A stretch of 64,000 nt of DNA from contig PTEX01000012.1 in NCBI GenBank assembly GCA_003342815.1, positions 4,049,880 to 4,113,879 of the forward strand. Direction: 5' to 3'. Positions 45,632-63,733 of the stretch are shown here, one piece after another; the stretch's first letter is position 1, and the number at the start of each line of letters is the position of its first letter. This stretch comes from Eudromia elegans (lineage: Eukaryota; Chordata; Aves; Tinamiformes; Tinamidae). A program made the translations under genes and the position numbers. Under the pieces are notes generated by a model. That model saw nothing but the letters and a program-made list of their open reading frames with translations, had not been told where the DNA came from and made no database searches.

Positions 45632-48600
45632 ATGAGAATCACACTTTCCTGCGCTGTGCTGTTCTTCCTGGATCTCCTCACTTGCTGCAGTGCTTATGCA
45701 CAGAATCCCTTGCCTGACATAACAGATGCTAAGTTTATTAGAGACTGTGTGACAACTCACAACGACTTCCGATCCAAGGTGAACCCCCCAGCCAGCAATA
45801 TGCTTCGCATGGTAAGGCAGTGTTTGTGCTCAGCTTGAAAATTCATCTTGTGCTGCTCAAATAGTCCCTCTGTTCAGTTTCATTCATACTTTTCTTTATC
45901 TTTCTGTCAGTGATTTCGTTCCTATATATGATGGTTCTTTGAAGAAAATAGAATAGAAAAAATATTTTTCACAGCATTGTTCAGTGTTACTAATTTGAAG
46001 GGATTTCTGTCTTTAGGGTTGCTGTGCTAACCGTTAGCCAATCTTGCTGTAGTGTAAAAATATATGTGTTATTTGTCTCTCAGTATTTATTAGTTTTTAA
46101 TTAATTTTTAAAAGTTATGGTAACTTTAAAGTATGGGTACTAATATTTGGCCTGGAAAACAGAGCTTCCTCTATATATAACAGATATTGGAGCAGGACGT
46201 GGGTATCATTCAGCTTATCGAGAGAAATATGTTAATAAAAGATAGATGAGATAAGGAGTCAGTGTATGCCATTACTTTGAGCCGTGCAGCTCTGCTGTTT
46301 AGCTGGAAAGGAAGTTTAACCACAGGAACTACATGGGCCACTTCTGTGAAAGGAGCTTCATAGGAAAGATTGAAAACTCAGCCTATGTGCAATTGTAATT
46401 TCTAGCCATTTTGTTAAAACCTGTGTTTAATTAAGAATGATAGAGCATAAGAACAAACCTAAGTGATCAGACCAAAAATCCACCAAGTCTACCATGAGCA
46501 AGACAAACATACAAGAACCTCCTGAATCGAAGTTGTTGCATTTAAAAGCTCTGGATGATTTTTTTTTTTCTGGATGATTCTTTTCAAACTGCAGCTGAAA
46601 AAAATTCAAATTTTTACCATACCCACACCCTATAGCGAATATCTGTTTAAAAGTGTTTGAATTCAGCTGAATCACTGCAGTGCAGGTTATGTTTTGCTTT
46701 CTTCTCATTCCACAGTCCTGGGACCCAGCTTTGGCTAAGACTGCCAAGGCATGGGCAAAGAAATGCCAGTTTAAGCACAATATCTACCTTAAAAAGCCAG
46801 GGAAAGTGCATCCCACCTTTACACCTGTTGGAGAAAACATCTGGACTGGCACGGCCACCTTCTTTTCTGTGGACGGAGCTCTCAGTGACTGGTTTAATGA
46901 GATTCAGAGCTACGATTTCAATACCAATAGCTGTTCGGACCAGTGCGGTCACTATACCCAGGTGAGTTTTTCTTGTCCAAAGGTTTGTAGCCTAGCAATT
47001 TCACAGGATCAAAGTATAGGCTTGGATCAGGCTGCTTTGGAACAGAAATTAGATCAGGGATTTCTCTTCTCCACGTTAGTGCTGGATGAGTTTGGAAATA
47101 GAAAATTCTGAGCAGCAGGGCCCTGTTCTCACCATGGAAAGGGATTATCCCCCCAGCAATTTCATACTGATGTCATCTTTGAACTCCATAATTTAACAAA
47201 AACCACAAGTATTAGCACCTTGCTCCTTACCACAAGACGTGTCTGTGCCAGGCTGGGACATGCTCTTGGGTCCTACCACGCACAGAAAGGCTTCTGTGAC
47301 TCGTGCTTATACATGTATCAAGAGTAGGTACCTTTCGGAGGAAAAGCACCTTCTAGAGAAAACAGGAGGCATGCTTGAAGCTCACCATTAGAGACTTAAA
47401 TTTTAAGAGACTTTATGACTTTTAAAGAGACTTTATATTTTCTTGGTTTAATTATAGTATTTATTTGAAATATTTTTAAATGGTCAAAAAGATTCCCAGG
47501 AGACAAATGTGTCTTGATTATATCACCGTCTCTGTAGCAGGCAGCACATCTGGACAGTGCTTAGCCTGGAGGCAGGATGCTTGTTACCTAGTTTGCTCAA
47601 AATTACGTAGTTTTTGTCATTAAAAACATATATATATATAATATGCATGTATGTATATGTATATTAGAAGAAGAGAAAGCAATACACTGCATCTTTAAAT
47701 AAGACTGTGAATATAAGTCATCTACTTTCATGTTTCCAGGAGAACCTGACAATAAATGCAGAAAAATCAGTTAATCGTCTGCCTCAGCTTCCCTTTTGGC
47801 TTCTGCTGCTGTTTCTGTGCTGGCTGTTTTAAACTCCCATAAGAGCCCTTCACTTCAGTCATGGCTTCTTCCCTTAATCCTGTGAGTTGTAGTAGTTTTT
47901 CAGTATTTCAACGGGATGCTGTGTATCTCACTTTGCCTTTCAGGTTGTTTGGGCCACGAGTTACAAGGTTGGCTGTGCTGTTCACTTCTGTGACACAGTT
48001 GAGTATTTCCCAGGACTCCTCAAAGCAGCACATTTTGTTTGTAACTATGGACCAGCATAAGTTAATTATGACCTTTGGATTTTTTGTTATTTTAAAAACA
48101 TCCTCTAACTGGTCTGGTATCAGATATTACCAATAGTGGGATCAGTACTACAGAAAAAAATGCAACTGGTTGAGAGGAACTTCCCCAAGCCATTTAAAGC
48201 AAAGGCTGCTGCCCTCAGCCTTGGCTGCAGAAAATCCCTTTCTGAAAAAAAGCAGGTGAGCAGATTTCGCTCGGAGTTTTGACCATAAGCAAGAGCGGTG
48301 GAATTGTTTCTGTTTTGACTTCAGCCTGTGCAGGAAAATGGTTGGACTTGAGGATCTTGAAGGTCTTTTCAATGTTAAATGAGGAAGTAAAAGGAAGGCA
48401 GTCTTCTAGTTTATCCTATGCATTGCAATTTCTGGACAAGGAATTTACAGGTTGTGGGTGTAACTATTGTAAGGATTGTTTCTTTGCTAAAGCTGTGTTT
48501 CCTTCATAATAGCTTCCCATGATGAGTTATTCTACCAGCTTGATGAAATACTATATTTAAACTAGTCTTCATAAAAAAATAAGGGAGATAACCAAATATG

Positions 48601-51600
48601 GTTCTTCTGCTTTTCAGGGGAAATTACCCAACAAAACCTTACAAAGTAAGACGGTCATGCAGTGGATGCAGTAATGACAAGTGTGCGAACAATCTCTGTG
48701 GTAAGACTAAAGGAAAAAAAAAAGAGAAATTATTGATAAATAAAAGTACCATAATTATCAATGGAAATATAGTAATATAGTTGTGAGTCAATTTGCACTA
48801 AGTACATAGCGAATCTGCAGCCCACCAAAAAGGCAACAGTACCAAACACTGGTAAGGAGAGCGTAAGAAAAAGTAAAAAAAAGCTTTGCTCTTTAAGGAC
48901 CACAGTTAGAAAAACTAGAGTTTCCAATGGAAAGATAAATCCTTTCAATCACTTTCCACCTCTACGTCTGATCAAAAAGTTATATCTAAAATATTATCCC
49001 CAACAAATATTCCTCTCTGGTTCATTTCTCTTAGGAAAAACAGTTTATTTAACTTTGCTTTCTAGCTTTTCTTTAATATGTCCTATCACATTCCCAAAAA
49101 ACTATAGAGTTCTGAGTGAGCAATTGAAAAACACACCTATTTCTAACTTCTGTGACCTTCTGAAATACATCAATAAGAGCCTGGGTTTTGCACAATAGTG
49201 GATATTTTTTGATTATACTAGGTCCTAATTAGAGTCAGAAGTAGTATTTTAAATGAATGACATGCACCTGACATGCAACAATGTGAATATCGTAAAGACT
49301 TTTAGAGAAGGTCCCTACTAGCCAGCACCCAGGTAGATTAATCTGTAGAAACAAAAGAACATTTGGTATTCCTATTTCCTTCTGCGGTGTCCTGGCTGAA
49401 GGACCCACTGATGCATCACAGAATAACCACAAACCTCTCAGACTGTGAGGCAGGATGAGAGCTTTGAGGAGTTACGTGCTAGATCCTGAAAGCAGCTCTA
49501 CCATTGGGTCCCTTAGGGCAAGTCAGTAATTCCTGCAGGCTGCACACAGAAAGCCATGCAAATGCATCACAGCTGTTAACAAAGGTGTGATGAATTTTGT
49601 ACTTAGTGAGATTTGTCCATCTGTAACTGCTTTATTTAAATTAGCTTTGTATATAATTAAAAAAAAACCCCAACAACTAGGTTTCATTTTTGTTTGCTAT
49701 TGCTACCTCCTTATGATACATTTTTTTCCTAAAGCAAATGTTTCTTTTCTGCTTCGCTTATAGTTCAATTAAGTAATATTAGACCCACCTACGTGCTGGG
49801 AACCTGCCCTTGTTGACTTAGTTCCTCCCTTGTGAAATGTTTGAAACATAGACTGGCACTGAAGGTGCCCTCAGCCAGGCAGCAGCAATGGCTCACCTAT
49901 TTTAATGAATAACCATTTATGAATGCTTATTAATGAAATGATGATGAATGGTAATTAATGGATGATACTCACAATTGCTTTCTTTTCTGATCTCTCGACA
50001 GAAAACATCGAACGTGAGAAACTGCTAAGTATGGATCAAGTTGTTCTTCATCAATTCCCTACAATTTCAGGTTCACTTGGTGGGTTTTAATGACTGTTCC
50101 CTTGCTGTTTTTTAGGCTATGCCAACTGGTACCCAGACTGGGACACAGAGCCGCAGCCACTGCGGCCACGGCCCCCCCGGCCCCCTGCCCCTCGCCCTCC
50201 CGTCCGCCCACCCACGGGGCCTCCTACAGGGCAGCCACCTACCTCTTGTGACAGCTACTGTGTTGCAGCCATTTTGGCATGCTCCCCCCCACTGAATGCC
50301 CAAGACAGGCTCCCCTCCTCCACCCTGTCCCCTGCCCGGAGACAGATGCTGATTGGGCANAGGTTGGCGCCCAAACCCNGGNAGGTTCTGGGCTCAGAAC
50401 CTTCCCGAACCNCCTAGCCCCCTCCTCACCCAACTACCTGTCCCTGTCCATCACCCCCTATCTCCTCCTACTGGCCAATCCCTTTGTGGGAAAGGTTCCC
50501 CGTCCAATCCCCACCTGTCACCCCACCTTCCCAGACCCAATCATTTTATGACTTTTACCCCAGTTTGTTATATAAGCGTTGTACGCGATTCAATAAAGGT
50601 TCCCACTTGCATGGTCATTGGTCTCTGGTGTCCCTCTGTCTGTATGATTGATGTGTGAGTGGTGTGGGAGCCCCCTCAGTGTGCATCCCTCGTCGTCCCT
50701 TTGATCGTCAGCCCGTTCCCGTGTTTTATCCCCCCCTGGGATCAGCGGTGGAAGCTTTTGGAGTGAACCCCTTCCAGATCGTGCTCTCCAGTGGCTAGCC
50801 TAACGGGTAATTATTTCGGGTGGGTCTTGGCTGGGAGGGTCCACTTCAAGTGGCGCCCAACGTGGGGCTCGAACCCACGACCCTGGGATTAAGAGTCCCA
50901 TGCTCTACCGACTGCTCCACGTTGGGGCATAGGGGATACGGGGAGCTGGGCCGAAGGGAGTTTTGAGGGGACCTGAGGGTTTTATTTTCCTTTTCTTTCC
51001 TTTTGGGGGGANAAGGGTGAGGGGNGATATCCTCNGGGAGGGNTCCNCTGTTGCCCCNTGGGTTGGGAGTGGAACCTTGGGGCGAAGTGGGGGTTTGTCT
51101 TATTCTATCTTCGGGTTACCGAAGCGATTACTATTTGGAGGGTTGCAATCGGGGATTGCAACCACCCCCGAGTACCACCATTTGTGTCGGTGGGTCTTTT
51201 GGGGTGGGGGCCTAAATTGTTTAAGGTCCCGGCACCCAGCATTCTTGGCTGGGGACATATCGGGGCTTCATTCTTGAAGTAGCTCGCCGAGCCCCGGGGG
51301 CTCCAAATCAGTGGAAGCCCGGTAAAGTTCGGGGTAGCCGGCGCGATCGGCCAGGGGGGCCGGTCGGCGGGTCTGGGACCCGCAACCTCGGCAGCAGGAT
51401 TGCCTTACGGCAAAGCACCGCTGCCTCTTGATTGTACCTGCATTATTTCAGTTGTGTCATTCGTTCTGTATTTGTATTATTTGGTTTACTGTGATCTGAC
51501 TGTGCTTGCAGTTGTGTCATTCGTTCTGTATTTGTATTATTTGGTTTACTGTGATCTGACTGTACTTGATCTGTCTGTAAATATCTGTACATATTACTTA

Positions 51601-54600
51601 CCTGATTGTGTGTATATATATATACCGCGGATAGTACTGTATTGCGCCTTAAAGTTTGTTTGGACTGTGGTACTTACCTGCCTTTAGTTTGTGTGTATTG
51701 TGAATTTGGGGNCTGTCTAAGGTGTGCAAATGGGAGGTTGCGCTGCCAGGTTCGCAGAGCCACAAGAGCTCTGCCACCTGCGGTCGGTGCTTGCCGACCA
51801 GCAAACCGAGTGGACTGAAGTTAAAAGGATAATCAAAAAGATGGTAAAAAGGGGGTGTCTGAATGATTCGGATAATCTTTTAGACCACTCGGTTTGGAGA
51901 AGGTGGCACCAAGAGTTTACTGCGGANACGGGCGGNTCCTGGCTGAAGCAGCTTCANGCCAGGAGCCGTGCTGCCATCTGTNTGAAAGTGGCTCGATTTC
52001 TAAAAAGAGCGGAGATTGTGGCTATTGTACAGAGTGATAATGTATTTGCGACCGATGTTCTTAACCGTAAAAAAGAAATTGTATTTCGGCCGGCTATGGG
52101 NGGGTGGCAGACAGTCGCCGGGACCGTTTCNTCACCACCAAGACCGTCTGATCGAGTGTTCGCCNGACCGCCGCNCGAGANACCGCCGCCATTTTATCAA
52201 NAAGCGGCATCGGGAGCTCCGACTACCTCGGCGGCCGGAAGTTCGAATCCACCGGCGCCATTTCAGGGAAAAGGCCCTATACCGCTGACTCCTCCCCTTT
52301 CAGCCTATGGGGAAATAGAAGGAGGGGCTGGGCCCTCCTTGGGGTGTACAGCCTCCCCGCCCATAGGGGCGGCGCCCTCTCTGTACGGAGGAGGAGTTCT
52401 CCCCCCACAGCAAAGCGGCGCGCCGCCGCTTGTGGTGCCTAAGCCGGTGTGGGGGGGAAGCGGCGAACCGCCGTTTGCGGCCCCGAGGTCGGAGAGGGGA
52501 GAAGCTCGTCTTAAAGGCGAACTGACACAATATGATGGTATCAACGATAGTCACCCTAAACAAAGGGAATTGATGAAACAACATACTGAGGTCAAAGGTA
52601 TGGGACCTAAGGTAATGGCATATGAGAATGACAACACTAGAAAATGTAATGGGTATATAAATGAGATAGTACAGGGCTCACCTAAAAGGGCTATGTATGA
52701 AAGTAGGGTAAGAGAAAATTTTGAAGGTCAAACAGATAAGATAGTCAAAACCTTGTATGAAAAGGTCGATCTTAAAGGAATAGCTGCATTAGGTGATGAC
52801 CCTAAGAACCAACTAAGGCAAGTATCAAGGGAATGTAAAACTGACACTGACAGTGCTAACGATGAAGAGTCTGAGGGGCTTACCTCCAATCAGAAGGAGG
52901 AACTCAAGGTCAAAAACAAAGGCAAAAGGGTTAGATTGTTTAAAACCACTTACCGCTTTAACAGGCTCTGGCTAAAATGCGAAAGGTATAACAATAAGAT
53001 TAAAGAAGGCTCATCTGAAGGGACAGTAGATAAAGGTATAGGGAGAGAAACCTATGAAAGAATAACAAACGAATGTGGTATTAATAGCAATGGCTGCAAG
53101 AGCTATAATAGTAAGAAACTAAAAAGGATAGCAGCTCATAGTAATGATGAAGATGGTTGTAAAGAAGGCATCGATGAAGGATATGAGAGGTATAATAATA
53201 ATAAGATCTATGAGAGTTTATCGGCAGGAATAGCAAAGACATGTCAGTCAAAACAAATAGAGAGGAGGATTAGCAATAGAAGTGATGTTAAATACGATCT
53301 TAAAGTAATAAATGAAAAGGATTCAAATAGGAAAGGTAGAAAGGAAGAGCCTATACTTGTGGAGACGATAAATAATATAAAGAAGGGATCCAAGCTTATA
53401 GTGAAAAAGGCTCCTAACAATAAACCCAGCCAGTATCACTTGACTGTCGGTTGCACACTGGATACTTCCAGGGAGAAAAGCCCAAGCCTTTTTGAGAGTC
53501 TTAAAGTTGATATACCTGGAAATGCAGGATCTTCTAGCAGACCATCTAATCCAGAATTCTGCTACACCTTTTGCCCTGTTGGTGACAAGGTGCAGCAGAA
53601 AGAGAATCCCTCATCCCTCTTCTTTGATGACAAAAAACCTGCAGAAAAGAAAGCTCAGACCAGCCCGGAACAAGGTAATTTTAGCGCTCAAGCGATTGGC
53701 AAGCAGAGAGGACAGGAAGCTGACTATGTTAAAACAGAGAGTTTATCAACGACACAGTCTGGCACTGCAGCAAATATGCCTGAAGGTCTTACTCTTGATC
53801 TAGTGCAAGAGGCTTACGGAAGTGAAATGCATGATGCAGCATGTACAGAGCTCGCCTATGGAACTAGGATTGATTTAGCTCGGACCTCTGAGCCAGTGCA
53901 GGAAACTCTGAAACCCGTGGCACAGCTCTGTCCCTCCCTTGAAGGGCCCGAAGCTGCCCCGTCGCCCATATTGCCAAATATTGTGATGGAAGCCCCATTA
54001 GGTGCCGGGGCTGTTAGTGCAGAAGCCTCTGCTGAGCAGCTTGAAATTTCCCCATTAGGGACTTTCACTCCTATTGCCAGTTTTGAGAATGCTAAGCAGG
54101 AGACTGGTAAGCCTGAACGCAAGGAACCTGTTGGAAAGCTGTCTCCCCAGTTTGGGAAGCCTGACTTGTTTAATAGCCAGATGATTAACTTAGGTGTTGC
54201 CAACGCTATGGCTATTGAAGAGAATGGTATGTTCTTAGGATTAAAAGGGGACAGCCATTTAACGGAACCCGTTGTCCTGAAAGAAGGGCTCGAAAGGTCT
54301 GGCATTACTGCAGAAGTAAAGCCATACGACCTGTGCCAGATAAAAGGGATGGTAAAATATGAAGTATTTGATTGGGCTTTCAAACCTAATGACTCGTTGG
54401 CAGATCGGATAAACAACCCGCGGGACGGAGCGATGATAAGTGGTGGGCTGTTAAATAATTTTGTTGATGCCCCGCATTCCGATGCTGAAACATTAGAACC
54501 TGTGTCTATATCGAGGCCATCATTGCTGTCGCTGTTAAGATTGGCTGGTGCCGAGGGGAGTGTTTTCGCTATTGGGGGGCTCCTGATATATCTCGGGAAG

Positions 54601-56520
54601 TATGATGTACTTAAACAATTGTGTGATGAAAGGTCCTGCCACATTGTATACTGTATGAGCGATCTACTCGAAGAGTTCGTTAAAGTGCCTTGTTTTTTGC
54701 TAAGAGACTTCTGGCTAATATCCGAAATGTTTTCTCAAAATTCAGAAGTAGTGAGCCGGATGCTCGGCCAGGAGGAGACCCTAGACTATACTGAATCCAG
54801 CCTGCAAAAAAGGTGGAATTCTGAAAATGAACTCCCCCCTTCAGCCGACTCTCAATTCTGCCTAAAGGTCAATGATTCCGACCCTACCTCAGAGTCAGGC
54901 CGGTTCGGCGAAGGAATTGAAGTTGATTCCACCAATTCAGAAGACGGCGAGTCAGATGACGAGATACGGGAATCCTTTGATGGCGGAGAACACCCGCTAG
55001 ATCACAAGGCATTTGATGGGGTTGCACGGCCGGATAAGGGTTGTTTAGAGAGCGAGAGTACGGATCGCGAATCTGACTCAGACTCGCCTAGCACGGAAAT
55101 CGGGGACACCTCTGAGGACAGCAGTTGCAGTGGTGAAAACCTAGGATGGCATGACGATGAGGACGTCGCGCCCGTCTACTGGCCCCTTGATAAAGGAAAT
55201 GACATTCCAAAGGATACCGAGGACCCCGGTGGGGGAAAGTTACCAGACACAACCGATGATGCAGAGCCAGCGTTTTCCCTTATAAGGCCAGAACTCTGCA
55301 TCATCTGCCTCAGCCAGCCGAGATCGGGCTGTATAGTCCATAACAGAATCGGGCACCTGGTGTGCTGTTTCACCTGTGCCTGGAAGTTGAAGGGAATGAG
55401 GCGTCCGTGCCCAATCTGCAGGTTGCCCATTGAAATGATTGTATTTACCTTCTGTTGAAATTAATGAGTTACTTGTTATTTGAATTTTGAATTCCCTAGA
55501 GGCTTATAATTGCGACGTGTTGCTCGTTGAGTGCCTGTTGCAAGATATGAGTGCCCTTTCCCAAAATTTACCTCAAGGAACTGAGTTCTGAAATTGTCGC
55601 CCGTGTCTCCACTGTGTGTTCCCAACTGATTGTGGACCCTTCCTTTTGCTGTCGTTGCATGTTTTGAGTCTTAAAAGTCACATTGTAGTATTAACTGTGG
55701 TAAGTGTATCACTGATATTTTGTTCTTGCTCAAGTTAATGTTTACTGTTCAAATGTTATGATATATTTTCCCTTGTGTGTTCCTCTTTCTACTGAGCCTG
55801 TCTTGGGCAAAAGAAAAGGGGGGATATGTTGCAGCCATTTTGGCATGCTCCCCCCCACTGAATGCCCAAGACAGGCTCCCCTCCTCCACCCTGTCCCCTG
55901 CCCGGAGACAGATGCTGATTGGGCAAAGGTTGGCGCCCAAACCCGGGAAGGTTCTGGGCTCAGAACCTTCCCGAACCCCCTAGCCCCCTCCTCACCCAAC
56001 TACCTGTCCCTGTCCATCACCCCCTATCTCCTCCTACCGGCCAATCCCTTTGTGGGAAAGGTTCCCCGTCCAATCCCCACCTGTCACCCCACCTTCCCAG
56101 ACCCAATCATTTTATGACTTTTACCCCAGTTTGTTATATAAGCGTTGTATGCGATTCAATAAAGGTTCCCACTTGCATGGTCATTGGTCTCTGGTGTCCC
56201 TCTGTCTGTATGATTGATGTGTGAGTGGTGTGGGAGCCCCCTCAGTGTGCGTCCCTCGTCGTCCCTTTGATCGTCAGCCCGTTCCCGTGTTTTATCCCCC
56301 CCTGGGATCAGCGGTGGAAGCTTTTGGAGTGAACCCCTTCCAGATCGTGCTCTCCAGTGGCTAGCCTAACGGGTAATTATTTCGGGTGGGTCTTGGCTGG
56401 GAGGGTCCACTTCACTACTGCCTCAGTGTTTCAATTCTGAGGCCTTTGTTTTTGGTCCTGAGTGCTGGTGGGGTTCTTCTAGTACAGCAGTGGTATCCCC
56501 ATGCATTTATGTATGTGTAA
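45632..56520 (+). CDS. GLIPR1-like gene 2, broken by a provirus and by a lost splice donor
   Basis: Exons 45632-45811, 46716-46961, 47944-48056, 48618-48700, 50002-50028, then a last exon 50116-50260 that resumes after the provirus at 56421-56520 (TAA 56518-56520). Without the insertion these sum to 894 nt, 297 residues, in frame. Signal peptide residues 1-24, full CAP domain ([26 protein letters not shown]), cysteine hinge, a Pro/Arg-rich stretch, and a C-terminal hydrophobic anchor (ILRPLFLVLSAGGVLLV) encoded only after the provirus. Start and exon 2 read closest to human GLIPR1. Two defects: the donor after exon 3 is ATAAGT where both sister genes have GTAAGT or GTAAGC, and unspliced reading meets TAA at 48058-48060; and the provirus replaces the anchor by about 52 LTR codons up to TAG at 50415-50417. 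It may be a pseudogene, or make a CAP-only secreted protein of about 180 residues. Confidence 0.82.
48330..48380 (+). repeat. CR1 3' tip
   Basis: 'ggttggacttgaggatcttgaaggtcttttc', typical of the last bases of CR1, in intron 3 of GLIPR1-like gene 2. Confidence 0.5.
50255..50260. repeat. Target-site duplication, left copy (CTACTG)
   Basis: It repeats exactly at 56415-56420, directly outside the TG...CA ends of the provirus. Six bases fits alpha/betaretrovirus-type integration. Confidence 0.93.
50261..50848 (+). repeat. 5' LTR (588 bp)
   Basis: Matches the 3' copy base for base except for three substitutions and four N (50360, 50379, 50382, 50412). U3 holds several CCAAT-type boxes (near 50353, 50474, 50501 and 50537), a GGCGCC element at 50366-50371 and an inverted repeat around 50380-50406. 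Confidence 0.95.
50569..50576 (+). promoter_or_regulatory. LTR TATA box
   Basis: TATATAAG, followed by AATAAA at 50592-50597. Transcription should start near 50600, so the R region is short. Confidence 0.7.
50851..50868 (+). other. Primer-binding site, tRNA-Lys
   Basis: TGGCGCCCAACGTGGGGC is the complement of the 3' end of tRNA-Lys (CTT), the primer used by betaretrovirus-type elements. It begins two bases after the LTR. Confidence 0.95.
50851..50928 (-). tRNA. tRNA-Lys(CTT)-derived sequence extending the primer site, probably not a functional tRNA gene
   Basis: Complementarity to tRNA-Lys does not stop at the usual 18 bases. The minus strand reads through T arm, variable loop, anticodon arm (CTT, complement at 50891-50893) and D loop, about 63 bases that appear identical to the host tRNA. 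The remaining 5' acceptor half is different: it reads GCCCCAACG, which can pair with the 3' acceptor side, so a cloverleaf or long hairpin can close. A tRNA finder would probably score it. More likely reverse transcriptase once copied far into the primer tRNA and the product was kept. Confidence 0.7.
50929..51729 (+). other. Untranslated leader of the provirus
   Basis: About 0.8 kb between primer site and ORF, with no long ATG-initiated frame. It is GC-rich at first (packaging-signal territory), then T-rich with a 60-bp tandem duplication. A possible splice donor (CCCGGTAAAG) lies near 51318-51327. Confidence 0.55.
51451..51570 (+). repeat. 60-bp tandem direct repeat in proviral leader
   Basis: 51451-51510 and 51511-51570 are identical apart from a few bases at the right end (gcttgca versus acttgat). 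Confidence 0.95.
51730..55458 (+). CDS. Gag-like / MDM2-like fusion ORF of the provirus (1242 codons)
   Basis: The first ATG of the frame is at 51730; the open frame extends slightly upstream but without ATG. It begins Met-Gly-Gly-Cys, fit for N-myristoylation with a neighbouring cysteine. Residues 1-110 look like a helical matrix domain and about 130-260 are Pro/Gly-rich. About 265-560 is Lys/Asn/Tyr-rich and AT-rich, and about 560-920 is Ser/Pro/Glu-rich; neither is recognised. Residues about 925-1010 match the MDM2/MDM4 SWIB domain (YLGKY; CHIVYC.SDLL; VPCF). About 1055-1175 is acidic and contains FGEGIEVDSTNSED, close to the MDM2 acidic region. Residues 1190-1242 are an MDM2-type C2H2C4 RING: C1190, C1193, C1201, H1204, H1209, C1213, C1216, C1227 and C1230 supply the ligand positions, and it ends PIEMIVFTFC. 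MDM2 binds p53 and ubiquitinates it through this RING. The frame is open despite scattered N. Whether it acts on p53 is not known. Confidence 0.9.
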   Translation: MGGCAARFAEPQELCHLRSVLADQQTEWTEVKRIIKKMVKRGCLNDSDNLLDHSVWRRWHQEFTAXTGXSWLKQLXARSRAAICXKVARFLKRAEIVAIVQSDNVFATDVLNRKKEIVFRPAMXGWQTVAGTVXSPPRPSDRVFAXPPXEXPPPFYQXAASGAPTTSAAGSSNPPAPFQGKGPIPLTPPLSAYGEIEGGAGPSLGCTASPPIGAAPSLYGGGVLPPQQSGAPPLVVPKPVWGGSGEPPFAAPRSERGEARLKGELTQYDGINDSHPKQRELMKQHTEVKGMGPKVMAYENDNTRKCNGYINEIVQGSPKRAMYESRVRENFEGQTDKIVKTLYEKVDLKGIAALGDDPKNQLRQVSRECKTDTDSANDEESEGLTSNQKEELKVKNKGKRVRLFKTTYRFNRLWLKCERYNNKIKEGSSEGTVDKGIGRETYERITNECGINSNGCKSYNSKKLKRIAAHSNDEDGCKEGIDEGYERYNNNKIYESLSAGIAKTCQSKQIERRISNRSDVKYDLKVINEKDSNRKGRKEEPILVETINNIKKGSKLIVKKAPNNKPSQYHLTVGCTLDTSREKSPSLFESLKVDIPGNAGSSSRPSNPEFCYTFCPVGDKVQQKENPSSLFFDDKKPAEKKAQTSPEQGNFSAQAIGKQRGQEADYVKTESLSTTQSGTAANMPEGLTLDLVQEAYGSEMHDAACTELAYGTRIDLARTSEPVQETLKPVAQLCPSLEGPEAAPSPILPNIVMEAPLGAGAVSAEASAEQLEISPLGTFTPIASFENAKQETGKPERKEPVGKLSPQFGKPDLFNSQMINLGVANAMAIEENGMFLGLKGDSHLTEPVVLKEGLERSGITAEVKPYDLCQIKGMVKYEVFDWAFKPNDSLADRINNPRDGAMISGGLLNNFVDAPHSDAETLEPVSISRPSLLSLLRLAGAEGSVFAIGGLLIYLGKYDVLKQLCDERSCHIVYCMSDLLEEFVKVPCFLLRDFWLISEMFSQNSEVVSRMLGQEETLDYTESSLQKRWNSENELPPSADSQFCLKVNDSDPTSESGRFGEGIEVDSTNSEDGESDDEIRESFDGGEHPLDHKAFDGVARPDKGCLESESTDRESDSDSPSTEIGDTSEDSSCSGENLGWHDDEDVAPVYWPLDKGNDIPKDTEDPGGGKLPDTTDDAEPAFSLIRPELCIICLSQPRSGCIVHNRIGHLVCCFTCAWKLKGMRRPCPICRLPIEMIVFTFC
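55459..55808 (+). other. Proviral 3' untranslated stretch
   Basis: About 350 bases between the fusion ORF and the polypurine tract. No envelope-like frame. The remnant here may come from the sequence next to a former env or from the captured gene's 3' UTR; I cannot tell. Confidence 0.5.
55809..55824 (+). other. Polypurine tract
   Basis: A 16-base all-purine stretch (A-rich, then six G) two bases before the 3' LTR, the usual plus-strand primer site. Confidence 0.88.
55827..56414 (+). repeat. 3' LTR (588 bp)
   Basis: TG...CA ends. It is N-free and so gives the clean LTR sequence. TATA at 56135-56142. The inverted repeat GGGAAGGTTCT / AGAACCTTCCC spans 55945-55972 with a 6-base loop. Confidence 0.95.
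56158..56163 (+). terminator. Proviral poly(A) signal
   Basis: AATAAA in the 3' LTR, 16 bases after the TATA motif. Proviral transcripts, and host transcripts running into the left LTR (copy at 50592), could end here. Confidence 0.65.
56415..56420. repeat. Target-site duplication, right copy (CTACTG)
   Basis: Identical to 50255-50260. Removing one copy plus the provirus restores the reading frame of GLIPR1-like gene 2 across Tyr-Cys. Confidence 0.93.
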
Positions 56521-58787
56521 TGACCGTTGAAGACACTGATGGTTATCCTGCAGCCACATCCCTGAGGGAGAACACATCTAAAAAACACTCATGGTCAATC
56601 TCTCGCTGCTATCTCGGTGATGTTTGTCTGGCACAGAGAAGGCTGTTTTTCTACTCGAGGCAAGATTCAAGTGGCTGTACAGTGGCTAAAGCTAGTAGAA
56701 CATAATAGCATGGCCCTACCTCTAGCCTACTTTAATGCCTATAAGAGTTTCTGAGATCTGGCCCAGATAATGGAGATGTAACTGTATTTACTGCTTTTTA
56801 AGTACATTAAGATTAAAGCTTGTCCTATGCTTAATTTTACCTTTGTGTATCAATTTCTATTAAAGGTACTCTATTACTGGCAGTCTTAATATTCTGTTCT
56901 TCTGCCATCAGAGTTAAGCTTTGTCCCCCATAGCTAGAAGAGTATCAAGGAACACTAACAGGGTATTGAGGAAGGTTAACAGAGCAAAGACTGAGATGGG
57001 CTGTCTGGGAACAGCTGAATTTTAGGATATGAGATGATGAAAGCATCTGAAGATGTAGAACTAAAGCAGGAGGGAAGAAAGTCAACCTGAGTCTGCAGGC
57101 AGAGGGGGAGAAAATGAAGATGTCAGTGAAGATGAAAGGGGCCCAGGACAGACTTTCTCAGAAATTAAGAACTCAGCCTTCCTGGGACAGCCCAAATGAC
57201 TGATGTTTCTGGTTTGTATATACACCCATTCAGTCTCCAGCCACCTTTATCTATCTATAGTTTATAGTTCATTTGTGAGTAAAGATAAACAAACCCATAT
57301 TTCAAGCTAAGATTGTATGCAATCAGAAGCGCTGAGCTGTGCTATCAATATTTAAAGCTGTTTCTCCTCCTTTATCTTAGTCTTGTGTTTTGAGCCCACA
57401 GTGATTTAAATCCAGAACTGCTCTGCAGCTCAGAGTGAGCACAGCATCCAGCAGAATCATGTGGGCCCTAAGGGTTCAGACTCTTGTTATATGCTACAGA
57501 ATGTCCCCATGCAAGAAGATGGATACTTTAACTATTGTCAGTTCTTGTCCCTCGCAATATTTAGAGAGAAATAAAGATTTAAATGCCTGAGCTTCAACAG
57601 GAAGCCAAAGGAGGATGATGGAGGTGGTGGGTGTGGGCAGGAGGGGCCTGAAGCACCACAAGTGGGAGGTCAGCTGGGCACTCAGGGTTCTGCAGCCCAG
57701 AGCTGGACACCCCAACATTTGGCCACACCAAGCCCTGTGACACCCTGGCTCTGTGAGGTGGTCAGATCACTGGGAATGATTTACAGATTGTTAGGGCTCG
57801 GGAGGAGAAACACACATAGCACAGGGGTGGGATCACAGGAGAGAATCAGCCGTGACTGCAGCATGTTTGACTTGCAGTCCTTAGCCAATCTTATCCCTTC
57901 AAAAACTCAACAGACGTCAAAAATGACTGCTCATATTACAGTAAATTCACGGTTCAGCTAAACAGATTTGACACAGCATTTTGGTTCACAGTAATAGTCT
58001 CAACAATAACATTATTTAAAAAGAGAAAGCAAAACCAAAACTTTATTGCAACTCATAGCAAATGCATTAAGAAAAAAGATGTAGGGAAAAAAAGAAAAAA
58101 AAAGAAAAAAAAAGAACAAAAAACCCCCAGGAATCAAAGTACAGGAGAGTTGTGGCTTGCCCATCACTCCAAGTTTAAAGAAAAAAAAGAAAAAAGAAAA
58201 AAGAAAAAGAAAAAGAAAAGAAAAGAAAAGAAAAGAAAAGAAAAGAAAAGAAAAGAAAAGAAAAGAAAAGAAAAGAAAAGAAAAGAAAAGAAAAGAAAAG
58301 AAAAGNAAAGAAAAGAAAAGAAAAGAAAAGAAAAGAAAAGAAAAGAAAAGAAAAGAAAAGAAAAGAAAAGAAAAGAAAAGAAAAGAAAAGAAAAGAAAAG
58401 AGAGAAAAAAGAGAAAAGAGAAAAGAAAAGAGAAAAGAGAAGAGAAGAGAAAAGAGAAAAGAAAAGAGAAAAGAGAAGAGAAGAGAAAAGAGAAAAGAAA
58501 AGAGAAAAAAGAAAAAGAAAGAGAGAGAAAAAGAAAGGAGGAAAGAAGAAAAAGAAAGCTCCTGCAGCTCTGGTGAACTCAAAGCTTAACTTCCCTATTC
58601 TCATAGCAGCACTGCTGAAAATGACTCATTTCCTGACACAAATACCATATTCAGTCACCACGGATCAAGATAAAGTCCAGCCCACAAGCCTTCCAAGCAG
58701 ACGCTGTCTGCACTGCACAGCTAAAAGCACCTTATACAGCTGAACTGTTAAACTGCTTTTAATGCCAAAGATGAGAGGCTGAGAACC
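56521..58787. other. Intergenic region between GLIPR1-like genes 2 and 3
   Basis: Mixed-composition sequence with the 3' UTR of gene 2 at the left and the promoter and 5' UTR of gene 3 at the right. The only clear structure is the AAAAG microsatellite. The short frames here have no family support. Confidence 0.5.
58178..58557. repeat. (AAAAG)n microsatellite grading into AGAGAA repeats
   Basis: About 380 bases of purine-only repeat with one N at 58306. It lies 230 bp upstream of the start codon of GLIPR1-like gene 3. The Lys/Arg-Glu frames across it are artefacts. Confidence 0.97.
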
Positions 58788-61700: not shown

Positions 61701-63733
61701 GCAGCTAAGCACAAATCAGAAGTGTATCCGTAAGATGATGTAGCATACGGTTCTGTAAGTCTCAGCAGAAGTAACAAAGAAGTAAAACTGCAACGTGTAG
61801 GACACTGACATGCAGTTTCATCCAGATTACAGCTGAATTACTACTACTGAGTTACTGCTCTGGTAAGATACCTCTGTGATTTTTAATTGTATTTATTTTG
61901 CAGAGCTGGGATCCAGATTTGGCAAAGACTGCAAAAGCTTGGGCAAAGAAATGCATATTCAAACATAATACCTACCTCAAAGAGCCAGGGAAAGCTCACC
62001 CCAAATTCAGTCCTGTTGGAGAAAACCTGTGGACAGACTCATTTCAGATTTTTACTGCAAAAAGAGCCATCACTTCTTGGTATAATGAGGTCAATGACTA
62101 CACTTACGAGACCAACAGCTGCAGAAGAGTGTGCGGTCATTACACGCAGGTGCGTATTGCGTTTCACCACCCAAGCCATGAGCCCGAGTGGCTGCTCGCA
62201 CACAGAACCCTCGAGCTGCACGTAGGACATCGGGGGGAACTTAATGCCTTGTCCTAAGACTTCCTCTGGAAGTGCTCGGATGCCAAAACAAGGATTTGGC
62301 CACTGGTCTTAACATACCTGTCTTTTCAGATCGTTTGGGCTACGAGTTACAAAGTTGGCTGTGCTGTGCACTTTTGTCCGAGGGTGACGGGCTTCTCTGG
62401 AACCAACGCAGCACACTTCATTTGCAACTATGGACCGGCGTAAGCTCTTTTCATTACAAAAATTTTACAAGATTTGTGTCTAGCTGCTTCCATGCCGCAG
62501 CTCTTGGCCTTACGTGATCAGGCCCTCTTGCCAATAGTCATGTTTTGTGGGAGGAAACGGTCTCCCGAAGAGAAAGATGTTCACCCCTGCCCACCCAACT
62601 GTTTGTGGCTTAATGAGGACTACAGATCACAGCCAAAACCCAGTGGCACTGGCAGAAAGGGTAAAATACAAGATGCCGAAATTAGCCTGCTAAAGCAATC
62701 ACTTGAAAACTGATCTATTGCTCTTGAGTGCCAAGAGGGCCCCAGATGGTTGCCAAGGCACAGGCCCAAAGTTTGCAAATATTTACACATTTGCCTGCAT
62801 AATTAAGCCAGTAGCGCAGTGATTTGGGTAAATATTGAGAACAATGTGCAGTGCTTTAATCCACAGTCTTAGCATCAGTATGAGAATCTGGAGTTGTGGG
62901 GCTGGGGCTGTTCAAGGCACAAGTTCATCCAGAGATCCTTCTGAAAGTGCAAAGATGTGGTGTCACTTGTTACTGCATTAGATATGCATCGTTGGTAGGA
63001 TATTAACCACATCTAGCATGGATTTTTTAAAAACTTACCCAGCTAATTAATGCCACCACAGTCTAAACCTAAGTTTAAAAACATTATGCACATAATGTTT
63101 TGGGCCAACTATATGACAACCCATGAACCCAAGGAGATGTTTTGGCCTTGCTATTGCCCATCCTTTGTCCTTGAAGAATCAATCTAATGTCCCCAATAAG
63201 ATACCTTGAAGTGTCCCAGGTCTTTTTCTGCGCCAAAGCCCCAAAACATTCCCCACAAAGCCCTACACCCCATGTTAGTAGGTCGAGGGAAAAACAGAGG
63301 GCCAATCCTCACATAGGCTTTAGTTGAGGTCAGCTTTGAAGGTTAGCCCAACTCAGGTACAGCTTTAGGCAGCTAAATCCTACTTAGACACCCAGTTCCT
63401 TTTAGAGTTACCAGTAACTCGATGGCTGACGGTGTCAGTTCCCTAGCTAAAAGCCAGTGGTTGCCCAGGTTGTCCTCTCCATTGCCCTCTTGATCCTTGC
63501 TGTGTCAGGGGGATTGTGGGGATGCCTGGACTGAGGCTCCCTTGGTGCTGAGGAAATCACCAGTGACATGATGTAAATACATATAAATAACCAGCCGTGA
63601 ACGTTCTGCTCGTGAGGGCGGTTTCAGAGCCGTGTCGTTTTACTTGGCAGTGGCAACTACCCCCGGCAGCCGTACGCGCGGGGAGCAGCATGCAGCGAGT
63701 GCCAGGGCGACCAGTGCGCCAACAAGCTGTGCA
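58788..63733 (+). CDS. GLIPR1: GLIPR1-like gene 3, exons 1-4, continues past the window
   Basis: Exons 58788-58967, 61904-62149, 62330-62439 and 63651-63733, with the same lengths and phases as the sister genes (246-nt exon 2, phase-2 end of exon 3). The start is a Kozak-type ATG (accATGg) opening a signal peptide (residues about 1-21). CAP domain with GENLW, CGHYTQ and [12 protein letters not shown]; exon 3 (FCPRVTGF...AAHFICNYGPA) reads nearest human GLIPR1. Exon 4 holds the cysteine hinge (GAACSEC...C...C). The donor at 63734 is GTAAGT. The short exon 5 and the anchor exon should lie beyond 64000. No defect is seen, so this is probably the working GLIPR1 of this genome. Confidence 0.85.
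61301..61455 (-). repeat. CR1 3' fragment
   Basis: 'cagaatggctgaggttggaaggaacttctggagatcatccagtccaacccc', the standard reverse-complement CR1 end, in intron 1 of GLIPR1-like gene 3. Confidence 0.88.

Follow-up and report, generated by a model that had tools for sequence, protein, structure and literature searches.

A provirus in the 64,000-nucleotide stretch of Eudromia elegans DNA analysed here (the window; 4.05-4.11 Mb of the contig labelled C14) very probably belongs to an endogenous family of bird retroviruses that are defective, depend on a helper and have transduced spliced MDM2 messenger RNA. The complete provirus lies at window positions 50261-56414, and most of its interior is occupied by a single open frame that begins at an ATG and links the N-terminal part of Gag to an MDM2-derived segment (residues 925-1242, 318 amino acids, window 54502-55458). 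The initial annotation had proposed that the element transduced an MDM2-family complementary DNA (cDNA), a claim now supported by the long terminal repeats (LTRs), the target-site duplication, the primer binding site, 12 sibling loci, the loss of introns and RING domains nearer to host MDM2. A genome-wide search for other copies brought out those siblings; the annotation had missed that the family is multi-copy and selected, that RTN4 and CEP152 were captured as well, and that the MDM2 zinc finger is lost. The sequence data attest to the capture, a helper-type genome and purifying selection.

Structure of the provirus and its relatives

The two LTRs of the window copy (588 bp each) differ in a pairwise alignment by 3 true mismatches plus 4 N, a 6-bp target duplication lies directly outside both, and a lysine primer binding site is present, bearing out the earlier claim that LTRs flank the captured gene. 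The MDM2-like part had likewise been described as in frame with a Gag-like start, and it shares one 1242-residue frame with a Gag part about 50% identical to that of a full-length relative on contig C70 (Table 1). Gag starts in the family read MGGC (the window) or MGVC, possibly a lipid-anchor signal that could tether the fusion at membranes. For the linker between the RTN4 piece and the SWIB domain, the genome search lists no match outside the sibling loci, Pfam gives none in the window, and an alignment of siblings returned no credible match in the PDB (one at E 0.08).

Searching the genome with the MDM2-like segment gave at least 27 matches, which sort by contig into at least 13 loci with a captured MDM2 (the window being one of them), host MDM2 (several exons at about 1.17-1.18 Mb of C14), host MDM4 (C519) and one other RING gene. 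The same genome gives 27 feather-keratin matches of up to 88% identity, as expected of a bird. The match on C2 (L036), considered as a family member, was read as an unrelated RING gene. Eleven of the 13 loci (all but L025 and L027) carry a Gag N-terminus upstream of the MDM2 part and on the same strand, and SWIB and RING are both found in 10, with L023, L034 and L027 incomplete. Self-comparison revealed LTR pairs, several of them partial, in eight loci (window, L022, L024, L029, L031, L025, L023 and L034), including 625-bp LTRs of 99.7% identity in L022, with the target duplication CACGAT read by eye, and 590-bp LTRs of 96.4% identity in L024. Elsewhere, L021 ends at an N gap, L026 and L028 at contig ends, and L027 is nested; no LTR pair was found by self-comparison in L030. 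One frame runs from gag through SWIB to RING in five copies: the window, measured from its ATG, and, measured from stop to stop, L021 (1376 residues), L022 (1507), L026 (1517) and L028 (1112), with unread codons within the frames of the window, L022 and L028. In L023, SWIB is lost and the RING ligands are intact in an open frame, and several copies are broken.

The resemblance of the segment to MDM2 was examined against solved structures using phmmer, the figures here being drawn from 60 listed of 96 matched sequences. Among the matches listed, a full-length MDM2 chain covers both domains at E 6.6e-30, MDM2 RING-only chains reach E 9e-22 to 3e-17, and MDM2 N-terminal-domain chains match from query position 5 to 80-96 at E 4e-13 to 6e-12, while MDM4 RING chains are weaker than MDM2 ones (E 3e-12 to 6e-12). 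Host MDM2 SWIB scores 57.0 bits against the segment (best of 1000 shuffles, 28.9) and host MDM2 RING 85.1 bits (22.7). Profile matching thus gave both MDM2 RING and SWIB chains, and Pfam only the RING (PF13920, 2.7e-8, above its cut-off). The SWIB-type domain named in the initial annotation is thereby upheld, as is its C-terminal RING with every zinc ligand at MDM2 spacing: all eight of the residues that we take to be the MDM2 ligands are kept in the window copy, together with what are presumably the linchpin arginine and the E2-facing isoleucine. Complete ligands occur in 10 of the 12 RINGs read, window included (L024 and L031 damaged; L034 not read).

The acidic region claimed between these domains stands where host MDM2 carries its acidic exon; its alignment to that exon is weak, and was made with the sibling L026 rather than the window (E 0.008). 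The central RanBP2-type zinc finger is present in the host gene, and neither the window segment nor that of L026 matches any zinc-finger part of it. In 11 matching copies the host last exon aligns only at the RING end, and in L024 from slightly further upstream. By the zinc-finger test, the predicted viral protein is MDM2-derived and not a complete MDM2. The acidic region of L021 and L022 contains a stretch that follows SWIB in L026 (FSHNLEMVGWEPG; FSHSLEMVGWEPG in L021) and is not found in the window, which suggests recombination between MDM2 subtypes.

What the family has lost can be seen by comparison with the C70 relative (L042), one of the loci among at least 87 genomic matches to a gag query. 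It has open gag, pro, pol and env, a 5' LTR cut by the contig start, and Pfam domains for Gag_p24, zinc knuckle, RVP, RVT, RNase H, integrase and Avian_gp85. In 11 of the 12 copies tested, homology to the 658-residue Gag breaks off somewhere between residues 247 and 412, either short of the capsid domain or inside it, so that those copies have neither a whole capsid nor a nucleocapsid; L028 has an additional weak Gag match, to residue 377. At E<=1e-3 the 64-kb window shows no C70-type pro, pol or env, and no pro or pol match lies between gag start and RING in the sibling loci, the nested order of L027 aside. The matches to pro, pol or env seen in L024, L028 and L034 are all located outside the MDM2 frame; their order suggests to us that they come from neighbouring elements. 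In L031 a 71-residue tail of the Env transmembrane subunit follows MDM2 (31/71 identical, E 5e-10). The window and L021 are 39% alike in Gag and about 84% in the MDM2 segment; the gag start of L021 is 92% identical to C70 in protein and 95% in DNA, the latter figure being about 73% for the window. These unequal likenesses suggest recombination.

In the explanation proposed here, most of gag, pro-pol and most of env would have been replaced by host cDNA, so that a single frame from the gag start codon would encode a Gag-host-MDM2 fusion. With LTRs, leader and primer site retained, a full-length relative could move the element in trans. The Gag start would anchor the fusion at the membrane, and the RING may act as an E3 ubiquitin ligase or pair with host MDM2 or MDM4. 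The product may blunt p53-type arrest or apoptosis in infected cells, or act there on another SWIB-bound substrate. Coding pieces of RTN4 and CEP152 would have been gained by the same lineage and shuffled among copies through recombination.

Table 1. Features of the provirus, in window coordinates
Feature	Position	Strand	Basis or remark
Target-site duplication, 5' copy (CTACTG)	50255..50260	.	directly outside 5' LTR
5' LTR, 588 bp	50261..50848	+	pairwise alignment of LTR pair
Primer binding site (complement of tRNA-Lys 3' end) extended to complement of whole tRNA-Lys(CTT)	50851..50927	-	ARAGORN, Rfam tRNA
Leader: two tandem 60-bp repeats	51449..51568	+	
Single open frame, 1242 amino acids (7 unread codons): Gag N-terminus, RTN4 piece, linker, MDM2	51730..55458	+	
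Gag N-terminal part	51739..52425	+	about 50% identity to residues 24-250 of Gag of the C70 relative
Captured RTN4 (Nogo-A) exon sequence, two pieces (490 and 75 nt)	53625..54185	+	about 90.6% nucleotide identity to host exon
Linker before SWIB	54175..54501	+	common to sibling copies on C8 and C565 (84-87% of amino acids) and on C593 and C397 (39%)
MDM2-type SWIB (p53-binding) domain	54508..54771	+	structure-sequence matches, shuffle control
Acidic, Ser/Asp/Glu-rich region	54772..55296	+	host zinc finger not found there
MDM2-type RING, eight zinc ligands complete, end PIEMIVFTFC	55297..55455	+	
Polypurine tract preceding 3' LTR	55809..55826	+	read by eye
3' LTR, 588 bp	55827..56414	+	pairwise alignment of LTR pair
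Target-site duplication, 3' copy (CTACTG)	56415..56420	.	directly outside 3' LTR

Several further observations concern the provirus and its surroundings. Beyond the primer site, the complementarity goes on to cover an entire tRNA-Lys(CTT), as if reverse transcription had run through the whole primer tRNA. Scanning for tRNAs gave no match in 11 sibling loci and the helper-type locus, the region being absent from some of those loci, and the primer site of L022 is present but not extended in this way. Two matches to the CAP domain (cysteine-rich secretory protein) flank the provirus (window 46671-47108 and 61880-62254) and are 76% alike over 155 bp of DNA, like a tandem CAP gene pair; an array of the 5-bp repeat AAAGA lies closely downstream (58177-58557). 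Host MDM2 is about 2.9 Mb away on the same contig, probably by chance.

Three candidates or searches beyond the family deserve mention. L027, where reverse transcriptase, integrase and Avian_gp85 stand beside a RING, was considered as a gag-pol-env-MDM2 virus; an LTR-like stretch separates env from MDM2, and the locus is therefore read as a nested insertion. At L027 4965-5510 and in L037, a pol-env provirus has a viral MDM2 fragment adjoining its LTR, and several pieces of retroviral origin seem to be nested there. The Zoarces viviparus protein P0010 (29% over 97%), considered as a relative, appears by its sequence to be a fish MDM2-like gene without zinc finger and is not counted as kin of the element. 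Protein-homologue searches with a longer piece and with the Gag start gave nothing at E<=0.001, though the longer-piece search is no evidence of absence because its results held no MDM2 at all.

Origin of the captured host genes

Capture from spliced RNA is indicated by the SWIB domain, which host MDM2 divides among three exons, the breaks falling behind KEV and KEHR, and which is uninterrupted in all ten proviral copies that have it. The intron loss relative to host MDM2 that the initial annotation would have led one to expect is thus confirmed. Together with the missing zinc finger, it points to capture of a spliced RNA, followed or accompanied by internal loss. Neither the window segment nor that of L026, the two compared, is matched by the exon presumed to bear the nuclear localization signal. 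In a tree of SWIB plus RING, which omits L023 and L027 (no full SWIB) and L034 (neither domain usable) and masks the damaged L024 RING, all ten viral rows group into a single clade (SH-aLRT 98.4, UFBoot 99). This single clade and the shared loss of the zinc finger suggest one capture.

As to the source paralogue, position 449 is Cys in all 12 viral RINGs read (L034 is cut), as in the MDM2s used, and Asn in both MDM4s used. All 12 RINGs also share more identities with host MDM2 than with host MDM4, and by percentage, computed over unequal column numbers, nine of the ten SWIB domains are nearer host MDM2, L028 being nearer MDM4.

RTN4 pieces (exon 3, Nogo-A) are found in the window, L034 and L023, those of the latter two having 85-95% DNA identity. 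Their source is a host exon on C575 with an 837-residue open frame, 43.6% identical over 838 positions (E 4e-152) to what we take to be the human RTN4 sequence. Host MDM2 exons are 60-75% identical to the viral ones, and RTN4 was therefore probably captured later, or MDM2 has evolved faster. In L023 (4604-5773) and L034 (5920-7209) the RTN4 order is changed, the C-terminal part preceding the N-terminal one, an order that a rearrangement, tandem or circular, could produce. In L021, L022, L024 and L026 the coiled-coil middle matches exons on C361 in order, and in L021 and L022 it is contiguous across three host introns, indicating spliced cDNA. An exon about 9 kb further downstream on C361 matches solved human CEP152 (3.6e-12), and we take it to belong to the same gene as the captured exons. 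At E<=0.01, neither the window nor any other copy tested showed CEP152.

Selection, function and competing explanations

Nei-Gojobori counts over 45 pairs among ten MDM2 copies gave a pooled ratio of nonsynonymous to synonymous differences per site (pN/pS) of 0.33 for the MDM2 segment, 0.39 for SWIB (45 pairs) and 0.24 for RING (L024 RING left out). Synonymous (dS) and nonsynonymous (dN) distances are 0.74 and 0.11 for L025-L026, 0.35 and 0.08 for L026-L028, and 0.11 and 0.03 for window-L021. To judge from these counts, the MDM2 segment is under purifying selection. Synonymous change between clades is mostly saturated, whereas in the window, L022 and L024 the two LTRs of the provirus differ by only 0.2-3.6%, so that most of the divergence is older than these integrations. 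If neutral sites in birds change at about 2e-9 per site per year, the provirus in the window would date back roughly 1.3 million years.

A number of results weigh against the transduction of MDM2 by a helper-dependent family, or against a p53-directed role for its product. A single full-length relative was examined. Pfam gives no SWIB match in the window at E<=1, and AlphaFold models of the segment (predicted local distance difference test, pLDDT, 48 for the whole and 61 for SWIB) are too poor for structure searching. In L022 and L024 the Env tails are short, with weak matches (E 0.01 and 0.02), and no convincing tail was found in the remaining seven of ten regions tested. The initial annotation had called for a tree with MDM2 and MDM4; a single viral clade was obtained, and its placement is weak, on the MDM4 side (76.8/46) and not firmly joined to MDM2, which we read as long-branch attraction. 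The L028 SWIB has 25/64 identities to MDM4 and 27/78 to MDM2. Two young pairs show higher pN/pS (L029-L031, 0.65; window-L022, 0.54). At the positions presumed to form the p53 pocket, 87 of 178 cells are conserved over the ten copies against 360 of 563 in the rest of SWIB, and 18/53 against 103/168 in the window clade. Y100 is Ser in nine of ten copies and I61 is Asp in the three window-clade copies, and with such changes p53 binding may be lost or altered.

The corresponding counts are 27/53 against 113/169 in the L025-L026-L028 clade and 42/72 against 144/226 in the remaining copies. The predicted proteins of L025, L029 and L024 could plausibly bind p53; for those of the window clade such binding is doubtful. 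It is quite possible, at a little under an even chance, that the captured RING works through something other than p53: SWIB would have been retargeted, and the fusion would ubiquitylate another host or viral-restriction protein, or only hijack host MDM2 or MDM4 by RING pairing. Constraint is indeed stronger in RING than in SWIB, the pocket is less conserved than its surroundings, which would make ubiquitin-ligase or RING-pairing activity the better bet, and L023 keeps intact RING ligands without a SWIB. Nevertheless, SWIB is retained in 10 of the 13 loci with a pooled ratio well below 1, and L54 and G58 (10/10), L57 (9/10) and F91 (9/9 readable rows) of the pocket are kept.

It seems improbable that the host genes are neutral, roleless filler in defective elements copied by helpers. 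The CEP152 and RTN4 pieces are fragmentary and shuffled, CEP152 constraint is weaker than that of MDM2 (pN/pS 0.52-0.76), and the two young MDM2 pairs would fit such a view. However, the pooled MDM2 ratio over 45 mostly saturated pairs, with LTRs so little diverged, implies divergence that was filtered before integration, and the pairwise counts already suggest that neutrality is rejected. Quite improbable, too, is co-option, by which the copies would now be host genes for dominant-negative or regulatory MDM2-like proteins; several long frames are still open, but the insertions are young, with near-identical LTRs, and several copies are broken. Capture of MDM4 rather than MDM2 is very unlikely indeed, the weak tree grouping and the L028 SWIB being outweighed by Cys449 and the higher RING identities to host MDM2 in all 12 RINGs read and by PDB E-values that favour MDM2.

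With transduction of spliced MDM2 messenger RNA retained as the explanation, we lean slightly towards a long-lived, helper-dependent, multi-gene transducing lineage in which viral MDM2 would have been essential for millions of years. LTRs, leaders and gag starts would have been swapped among several full-length bird retroviruses, and CEP152 and later RTN4 added in one Gag-host polyprotein. MDM2 would have moved away from the p53 pocket while the RING was kept, suggesting a retargeted or decoy ubiquitin ligase.

Relation to known transducing retroviruses

Acute transforming avian retroviruses carry gag-oncogene fusions, such as gag-myb-ets in E26. The MDM2 family resembles them in that a Gag start is joined to spliced host coding sequence, most viral genes are lost and a helper would be needed; like E26, it holds more than one host gene within a single frame. 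LTRs, primer site and target duplication surround the gag-host fusion, replication genes are lost, and spliced cDNA is evident for MDM2 and CEP152. Oncogene-carrying retroviruses are textbook material and are, as far as is known to us, recent isolates that are soon lost. The present family, unlike such recent single isolates, is an old germline one that has at least 13 loci and shows signs of long-term selection. We know of no acute transforming avian retrovirus with MDM2, RTN4 or CEP152, nor of a retroelement joining RTN4 and CEP152 pieces.

The predicted viral protein is like host MDM2 in having SWIB, acidic region and RING in order with all zinc ligands, and unlike it in lacking the zinc finger, in an altered p53 pocket and changed C-terminal tail, and in its fusion to Gag. 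Its RINGs differ from MDM4 by the absence of Asn at the position of MDM2 Cys449. The nearest precedent is offered by crocodilian endogenous retroviruses with captured KIT-ligand (CrocERV29) and nectin3 (CrocERV31), which are likewise multi-copy, carry captured host messenger RNA and are reported to be under purifying selection (PMC4299795). There the captured gene lies between pol and env or replaces env, whereas here a gag fusion replaces nearly everything and an E3 ligase is involved; MDM2 does not occur in the main text of that paper (PMC4299795). A full-text literature search, with most subscription papers outside its coverage, found no MDM2-carrying retroelement, in agreement with the initial annotation.

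The anatomy seen here is that of an acute transforming retrovirus, but it appears as an old, multi-copy, selected germline family. An oncogene-type gene has thus been carried, diversified and selected in a germline retrovirus family, and the benefit of a captured oncogene to a virus over evolutionary time becomes directly testable. In addition, naturally evolved MDM2 variants are made available for the study of p53 binding and RING function.
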